64,000 nucleotides of DNA from Sulfitobacter indolifex (GTDB lineage Bacteria; Pseudomonadota; Alphaproteobacteria; Rhodobacterales; Rhodobacteraceae), in assembly GCF_022788655.1 (NCBI RefSeq), contig NZ_CP084951.1, positions 682,001 through 746,000 of the forward strand. The letters run 5' to 3'. Numbering within the stretch: position 1 is the first letter of the stretch; each line of letters begins with the position of its first letter. Below the pieces are notes generated by a model that was not told the DNA's origin, did not search any database, and saw nothing but the letters and a program-made list of their open reading frames with translations. This document shows, one piece after another, positions 42,598-63,511 of this stretch. The position numbers and the translations under genes were made by a program.

Positions 42598-42695
42598 GTG
42601 GGTCTCCTTTGCAGGAGAATGTGGCGCGGGGCGGGGGGATCGGCAAGGGGGATGTCTAGCGATGATCGCCCGGAATCAAGGCGTTTTGCGCCGCC

Positions 42696-42826
42696 GGGCA
42701 GCGCCCGACCGCCCCATGGGCGGGCGCTTTTGCAGCCGGACGCGTCAGCTTGGGAGCACATCATGGTTGAGAAATTAAGCGGTAGGAACGCTCGTTGCGA
42801 TGCCCACCCGCGGTCGGGCGCTGCCC
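42696..42826. repeat. structured repeat element, copy A
   Basis: A 131-base non-coding element. The outer arms GGGCAGCGCCCGACCG (42696-42711) and its exact complement (42811-42826) enclose 99 bases. Next to the left arm is a local hairpin AGCGCCCG/CGGGCGCT (42700-42728) followed by TTT, which shares bases with the outer stem. The core 42756-42790 matches 28 of 35 bases of copy B (63439-63473), including an identical 11-mer GCACATCATGG. The arm-to-core distances are alike in the two copies (44/47 and 20/21 bases). The type (mobile repeat or RNA) is unknown. Confidence 0.75.
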
Positions 42827-42856
42827 TGCTGAAGGGCGCTTTGAGTCCGGGCACAG

Positions 42857-63350: not shown

Positions 63351-63374
63351 GCCCGGAACCAAGCCGCAGGCGCC

Positions 63375-63511
63375 GGGCCATCGCCTGCCCGTCCCGGCGG
63401 GCTGGCGATTTGGTGAGGCTGGGTGCGACATTGAGAGCGCACATCATGGCCGAGACATAAAGTGGCATGAACGACCGTAATGATCGCCGACCCGCGGGCA
63501 GGCGATGACCC
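63375..63511. repeat. structured repeat element, copy B
   Basis: A 137-base element. The outer arms GGGCCATCGCCTGCCCG (63375-63391) and CGGGCAGGCGATGACCC (63495-63511) pair over 17 bases with one mismatch. The arm sequence differs from copy A at many positions while pairing is kept. A local hairpin ATCGCC-T-GCCCG/CGGGC-T-GGCGAT (63380-63409), followed by TTT, competes with the outer stem. The core 63439-63473 aligns with 42756-42790. As with copy A, a minus-strand gene's terminator lies 10-30 bases to the right. Confidence 0.75.

Follow-up and report, generated by a model that had tools for sequence, protein, structure and literature searches.

A non-coding element of about 160 nt, present twice in the window (the 64,000-nucleotide stretch of the Sulfitobacter indolifex genome analysed here), is probably a palindromic DNA repeat of the ERIC/RIME/BIME kind that is non-autonomous and dispersed through intergenic regions of the Rhodobacteraceae. 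It consists of a P1 hairpin on the left, a long inverted repeat whose four arm segments allow two alternative pairings, and a rapidly changing centre in which a few bases are fixed. We observe dispersed, tandem and plasmid-borne copies, versions without the centre, flipped copies, a location at gene 3′ ends, compensatory changes in the arms and one pair of filled and empty sites. The covariation of the arms looks more like a trace left by processes acting on DNA than like that of a working RNA.

Architecture of the element

The earlier note on this DNA had described two related non-coding stretches of 131 and 137 bases. Both are real: they share GCACATCATGG, their outer arms pair as claimed (16 of 16 and 16 of 17 bp) and they align with further copies. 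Their extent was drawn too narrowly, because P1 opens the element 24–28 nt upstream of where the note began it (Table 1). The two sets of arms do differ in sequence, as noted, and since the second copy is typical of the family and the first is diverged (178.5 versus 109.4 bits), this represents divergence within one family.

Table 1 Features of the two window copies (window coordinate = contig C1 coordinate minus 682000; boundaries of the whole copies are those of covariance model R1)
Feature	Position	Strand	Evidence
Diverged copy, the main finding	42668..42827	+	Model R1, 109.4 bits, E 6.3e-19; alignment
P1 hairpin, first copy (ends approximate, loop longer than usual)	42668..42698	+	Alignment with other copies
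Outer 5′ arm, first copy	42696..42711	+	16/16 bp with 42811-42826
Outer 3′ arm, first copy	42811..42826	+	Pairs with 42696-42711
Typical copy of the element	63351..63511	+	Model R1, 178.5 bits, E 6.7e-33
P1 hairpin, second copy, GCCCGG...CCGGGC	63351..63378	+	Pairs 2-7 with 33-38 of alignment A3
Outer 5′ arm, second copy (overlaps P1 3′ strand)	63375..63391	+	16/17 bp with 63495-63511
Outer 3′ arm, second copy	63495..63511	+	Pairs with 63375-63391
GCACATCATGG in the centre (common to both window copies, not conserved family-wide)	63439..63449	+	

Aligned copies run in the order P1, arm, loop, arm, centre, arm, arm, with P1 reading GCCCGG-AATCAAGCC...GGCG-CCGGGC. The outer 5′ arm has two possible partners: the outer 3′ arm, giving a long stem, or the adjacent inner arm, giving a short hairpin. 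Both window copies fold more stably than most dinucleotide shuffles (z −3.34 for the first and −2.39 for the second, equalled by 1 and 3 of 200 shuffles), and their plus and minus strands fold about equally well.

The 35-base core described in the earlier note contains the identical GCACATCATGG, which lies at 42756-42766 in the first window copy and occurs eight times in the genome, three of these inside the element. Most of that core is weakly conserved across 126 copies, in which the well-kept parts of the centre are an isolated ATAAA and the TTTGG that directly follows the inner 5′ arm. A coding role was considered and set aside: judged by eye, the frame of the ATGG in the core stays open in one copy and closes immediately in others.

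The ends of the element are not sharply defined in aligned copies, so that duplications of 2–10 bp would not be visible there, and the conserved end positions of the 161-position consensus carry no GTAG/CGTC tag. Some copies hold a head-to-head pair of hairpins that begins CGTCACGCC and resembles a CGTC-tagged REP dimer. It occupies the loop that separates the outer from the inner 5′ arm, and its place there is always the same (L091, L092, L093 and L096, which are C1:248611, 2036178, 241040 and 990722 of the S. indolifex genome, and also L196, L203 and L259). Shortened versions without the centre are made up of P1 and a short hairpin or of a P1-like relic (L194, L206, L210, L213, L251 and L270; L096; L318 and L319).

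Copy number, host range and genomic setting

A covariance model built from 33 copies (R1; 161 positions, 30 pairs) identifies 25 strong distinct copies in the S. indolifex genome at E <= 6.1e-8, so that the two copies of the earlier note belong to a set of at least 25; the 44 matching rows comprise these 25, four weak copies and 15 antisense duplicates of strong ones. Every one of the 25 strong copies is on the 3.27-Mb contig C1; the other seven contigs (C2–C8), about 27% of the genome, carry no strong copy and a single weak match, on C4. Same-orientation tandem copies separated by short spacers occur at L061, L062, L063, L071 and L094/L098, and in the S. indolifex genome at C1:2260691 and 2260885.

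Relatives, which the earlier note had suggested searching, also contain the element. Model R1 matches 130 of 248 genomes (129 of 247 genera) in a family-wide sample at E <= 0.01, and 165 of 292 genomes (73 of 112 genera) in an order-wide sample at E <= 0.001, where every genome listed belongs to the Rhodobacteraceae and the listing leaves out 107 genomes without a match. In a class-wide sample only three of 289 genomes match, all of them Rhodobacteraceae. E-values from the model are rough, and 10–11 candidates were scored per genome in these large samples, which makes the copy numbers per genome minimum values and means that weak families may have been missed. A BLASTN search with the second window copy against 98 relatives gave matches at E <= 0.01 in 25 genomes, seven of which returned 10 or more rows. 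Of the 25, 23 belong to the same genus, counting the S. indolifex genome itself; the remaining two lie outside the family, and their matches are short and weak.

Scanning named genomes for the P1 pattern returned at least 119 stretches; among the 80 listed, 75 match the model, 65 of them over at least 140 nt. The five listed without a model match include all four titled from other groups (a Betaproteobacteria, a Clostridiales, a Prosthecobacter and a Rhodospirillales MAG); the remaining listed stretches come from Rhodobacteraceae/Roseobacteraceae, among them Roseovarius, Sulfitobacter, Salipiger, Nioella and Shimia, or from unnamed alphaproteobacteria. Two queries matched 10 and 53 plasmid records, many of them partially, from Sulfitobacter, Salipiger, Leisingera, Pacificitalea and Pseudosulfitobacter, and in none of these records is a feature annotated beneath the match. 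A phage origin was also rejected, one element copy giving no match in a phage collection.

Copies sit at the 3′ ends of genes, confirming the multi-copy intergenic distribution that the earlier note had named as support. With genes called by a purpose-built codon-usage caller and copies parsed by similarly purpose-built means, the 26 loci of the S. indolifex genome (25 strong, one weak) fall in 14 convergent, 11 co-directional and one divergent setting, and the 86 copies at named loci in 36 convergent, 34 co-directional and two divergent gaps, with five in a called frame and nine at a locus edge. Pooled, and counting tandem copies within one gap separately, 50 of 98 placed copies are convergent and three divergent, compared with 34 convergent and 58 divergent among 204 other gaps of at least 60 nt (Fisher 1.4e-9 and 2.7e-8). 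Many copies start a few bases past a stop codon. In co-directional gaps 24 copies lie on the gene strand and 21 on the opposite strand, with no bias. The element also lies between convergent genes in five annotated plasmid records, among them three that represent the same locus in different strains. A single locus is common to three S. faviae plasmids, and the copies there differ block-wise, as if copies had recombined with one another (by eye); at this place two relatives keep only a P1-like relic and three others have a parA gene.

Orientation varies between orthologous sites. At locus A (C1:2372724) one of the eight relatives with the element (G045) has it oriented as in the S. indolifex genome (G000), and the other seven (G003, G029, G047, G023, G050, G025 and G038) have it reversed, P1 included. 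At locus B (window 63351-63511) the S. indolifex orientation is found in G050, G029, G047, G025 and G003, and the opposite in three of eight relatives (G045, G038 and G023, the last with its centre deleted). Among 30 loci examined for each site we found no clean empty site, the element being present in nine and nine and unrelated sequence elsewhere, with flanks not located in 4 and 10 of the 30 and long gaps viewed in part. When centres were compared with the 14 of 25 S. indolifex centres that could be parsed, flipped copies at locus A ranked the S. indolifex copy of that site 3, 3, 5, 8, 9 and 11 of 14. For locus B, the S. indolifex copy of the site came first with the flipped G045 copy, but 1, 2, 2, 5 and 5 with unflipped copies. 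These ranks do not separate inversion in place from independent insertion or replacement, because the centres change too fast.

Genome G007 gives further signs of spread: three of its copies, 96–97% identical, occupy different places and have related left flanks but unrelated right ones. A filled and an empty site can be paired here: the G007 copy L043/L385 has a counterpart in G053 with the same flanks and no element. The G007 unit is 304 nt long, made up of the element with roughly 10 nt on the left and 135 nt on the right, and is enclosed by 21-bp direct repeats of a sequence that is single in G053; by eye, G039 also seems to lack it. This is the only clean pair of its kind, and G007 is a draft genome in which an assembly error is possible. 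Another copy, L046, lies within a unit between 106-bp direct repeats that are 620 bases apart and 99% identical. Among 36 copies tested, these two stand alone with their repeats of 21 and 106 bp: around the other 34 no direct repeat exceeds 11 bp, and controls reach 12 bp; a short target duplication of fixed length was not found in this set, in which element ends are not sharp. A longer intergenic repeat containing ...TTCGCTGCATTTTTCACGAATGACCGC... occurs alone or beside the element in G007 and G053 (L039-L054, L345-L371) and looks like a mosaic family of its own. Several copies in these two genomes lie beside or within longer repeats, indicating that the spreading unit is often mosaic. Of the contigs G053:C2 and G007:C34, one ends 9 bases past a copy and the other starts 78 bases ahead of one, as is usual for repeats that interrupt an assembly.

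Covariation and mismatches in the arms

The arms covary strongly. In alignment A3 (33 copies) 94.0% of cells pair and six pairs are changed on both sides, with a covariation score of 0.093 against 0.033 in shuffles (none of 500 shuffles reaches 0.093). Alignment A5 (98 matches, including a few antisense or truncated ones) pairs in 91.9% of cells, compared with 29–47% for slid partners, and 24 of 30 pairs are changed on both sides (267 such cells versus 78 in shuffles; score 0.246 versus 0.072). The covariation over many copies that the earlier note had proposed to look for is thus borne out. A5 was fitted to the structure and leans towards it, but it is hard to obtain from such fitting a pair that is GC in 43 copies, AU in 21, UA in 15 and CG in 3. 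The 139 distinct copies of at least 140 nt contain 56 different 10-nt outer arms, and all ten outer pairs are formed in 66 of the copies and nine of ten in 48. These 48 copies with one mismatch show that single changes precede compensation, as they would under selection, which counts against the DNA-repeat reading.

Mismatches can distinguish between DNA and RNA. Selection on a plus-strand RNA is expected to leave many more G.U than A.C mismatches, selection on an RNA from the other strand the reverse, and DNA neither. Over all 30 pairs there are 71 G.U and 121 A.C among 4084 cells (p 0.0004); omitting three bulge-side pairs, a choice made after the data were seen, leaves 64 and 52 of 3680 (p 0.31). 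The P1 helix has 15 G.U and 4 A.C (17 and 4 with its tip, p 0.007), the outer stem 17 and 42 (p 0.0015) and the inner stem 12 and 6 (p 0.24). With the bulge-side pairs left out, G.U accounts for 1.7% of stem cells, compared with 24 of 336 cells (and no A.C) in 16 tRNAs from the loci analysed. Wobble pairs are thus rare and, again leaving out the bulge-side pairs, in sum no commoner than A.C, and there is no preference for wobbles on one strand. P1 and the outer stem point to opposite strands, so no single transcript explains both. Taken alone, the outer-stem A.C excess would fit an antisense RNA, and it is the main result against the DNA reading. The mismatch pattern, the strand neutrality and the changes of orientation together point to DNA rather than to a one-strand RNA. 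The earlier note was right that changes in the arms preserve pairing, but its step from there to selection on structure finds no support in the form given, for the same reasons (rare wobbles, no strand preference, differing orientation at orthologous sites).

Known families and explanations

ERIC/IRU sequences of enterobacteria and RIME sequences of rhizobia are non-coding, intergenic, multi-copy imperfect palindromes of over 100 nt. By description, the element shares each of these properties and can be likened to them as a type, although they belong to other hosts and the element has P1, four-segment arms and an ATAAA centre. A structured RNA, either a small RNA or a cis-acting 3′-UTR element on either strand whose stem is under selection in the transcript, is unlikely. 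The strong covariation and the stable fold of both window copies are as such an RNA would have them. Because many copies start just past stop codons, read-through transcripts will contain the element, and the outer-stem A.C excess fits an antisense strand and the P1 G.U excess a sense strand. Against it are precisely that the two helices indicate opposite strands, the scarcity of G.U relative to the tRNAs, the even split of copies between gene strand and opposite strand, the differing orientation at orthologous sites and the lack of an Rfam match. At gathering scores Rfam had no match in the whole window and eight loci, and with an E-value limit 301 bases and six loci gave only weak sub-threshold rows. 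On this lack of anything above threshold we reject a known Rfam family, in agreement with the earlier note, which did not recognise one.

A classical MITE, whose terminal inverted repeats would be acted on in trans by a transposase that a related insertion sequence encodes, is rather improbable. The element does have inverted-repeat ends (with P1 outside the left arm), lacks coding capacity and has dispersed near-identical copies. A comparable MITE, MITEPye1, is known in Paracoccus yeei, and by its description in PMC11578231 is likewise non-coding and intergenic with inverted-repeat ends, in the same bacterial family. That description also sets it apart: MITEPye1 has one to three copies, IS1182-type ends and fixed 4-bp direct repeats. 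Direct repeats over 11 bp, long in two and missing in 34 of the 36 copies tested, speak against a MITE, as do P1, present at the left end with none at the right, and arms that vary with compensation between copies, unlike a fixed transposase site. A RAYT-linked REP or BIME, mobilised by a Y1 tyrosine transposase, is very improbable. REPs are reported to be palindromic and enriched at gene 3′ ends and in convergent gaps (PMC3733652 and, for location, PMC1525189), as the element is. They are 20–40 bp hairpins with an unpaired GTAG/CGTC tag (PMC3733652), whereas the element covers 161 positions with untagged ends; in some copies its left loop contains CGTC-like dimers. CGTC repeats are reported in PMC3733652 from all alphaproteobacterial orders; the main text of that paper, figures aside, does not name Rhodobacter, Roseobacter, Ruegeria, Silicibacter, Paracoccus, Dinoroseobacter or Rhodobacterales, and PMC2267715 does not mention Rhodobacter, Roseobacter or Silicibacter. 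A profile search for Y1_Tnp (PF01797), the one family searched, revealed no parent transposase: at E <= 0.001 the domain occurs in three of 12 element-rich genomes (two over the cut-off) and in three of four genomes without a BLASTN match. It does not track the element across these 12 rich and four poor genomes, and we therefore reject a Y1/RAYT transposase as its mover.

For the dispersed DNA repeat that we favour, we propose that the element spreads as DNA and that copies would persist where they are harmless, at gene ends; some may also serve as mRNA 3′ stem-loops. The arms may stay complementary because one is copied onto the other by template switching in a hairpin or cruciform, because spreading needs the palindrome as DNA, or both. 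Template switching between inverted-repeat arms is reported to homogenise arms and invert spacers (PMC8604942), so covariation can arise here in the absence of selection on an RNA. It would explain both covariation and flips without an RNA, and the likeness extends to both effects, although it is presented there as a mutation process acting at single sites and not as a way in which a repeat family is maintained or dispersed. The covariation could equally well stem from selection on a DNA hairpin or from homogenisation by template switching. More speculatively, and somewhat unlikely, the element could be a selfish palindrome that needs no transposase at all, its hairpins stalling replication forks and template switching, both within and between copies, homogenising the arms, inverting copies, forming tandems and inserting composite units with long, variable duplications, of which those of 21 and 106 bp would be examples.

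We found no description of the element in a literature search covering mostly papers outside subscription. The element would thus add to a major family of marine bacteria a repeat family for which no description was found and which is unannotated in the plasmid records examined. It also offers a test case, as strong base-pair covariation is usually read as a sign of functional RNA, yet here the evidence points to DNA. With the paired filled and empty site and the differing orientation of orthologous copies, it becomes directly testable how palindromic repeats that lack a transposase spread.
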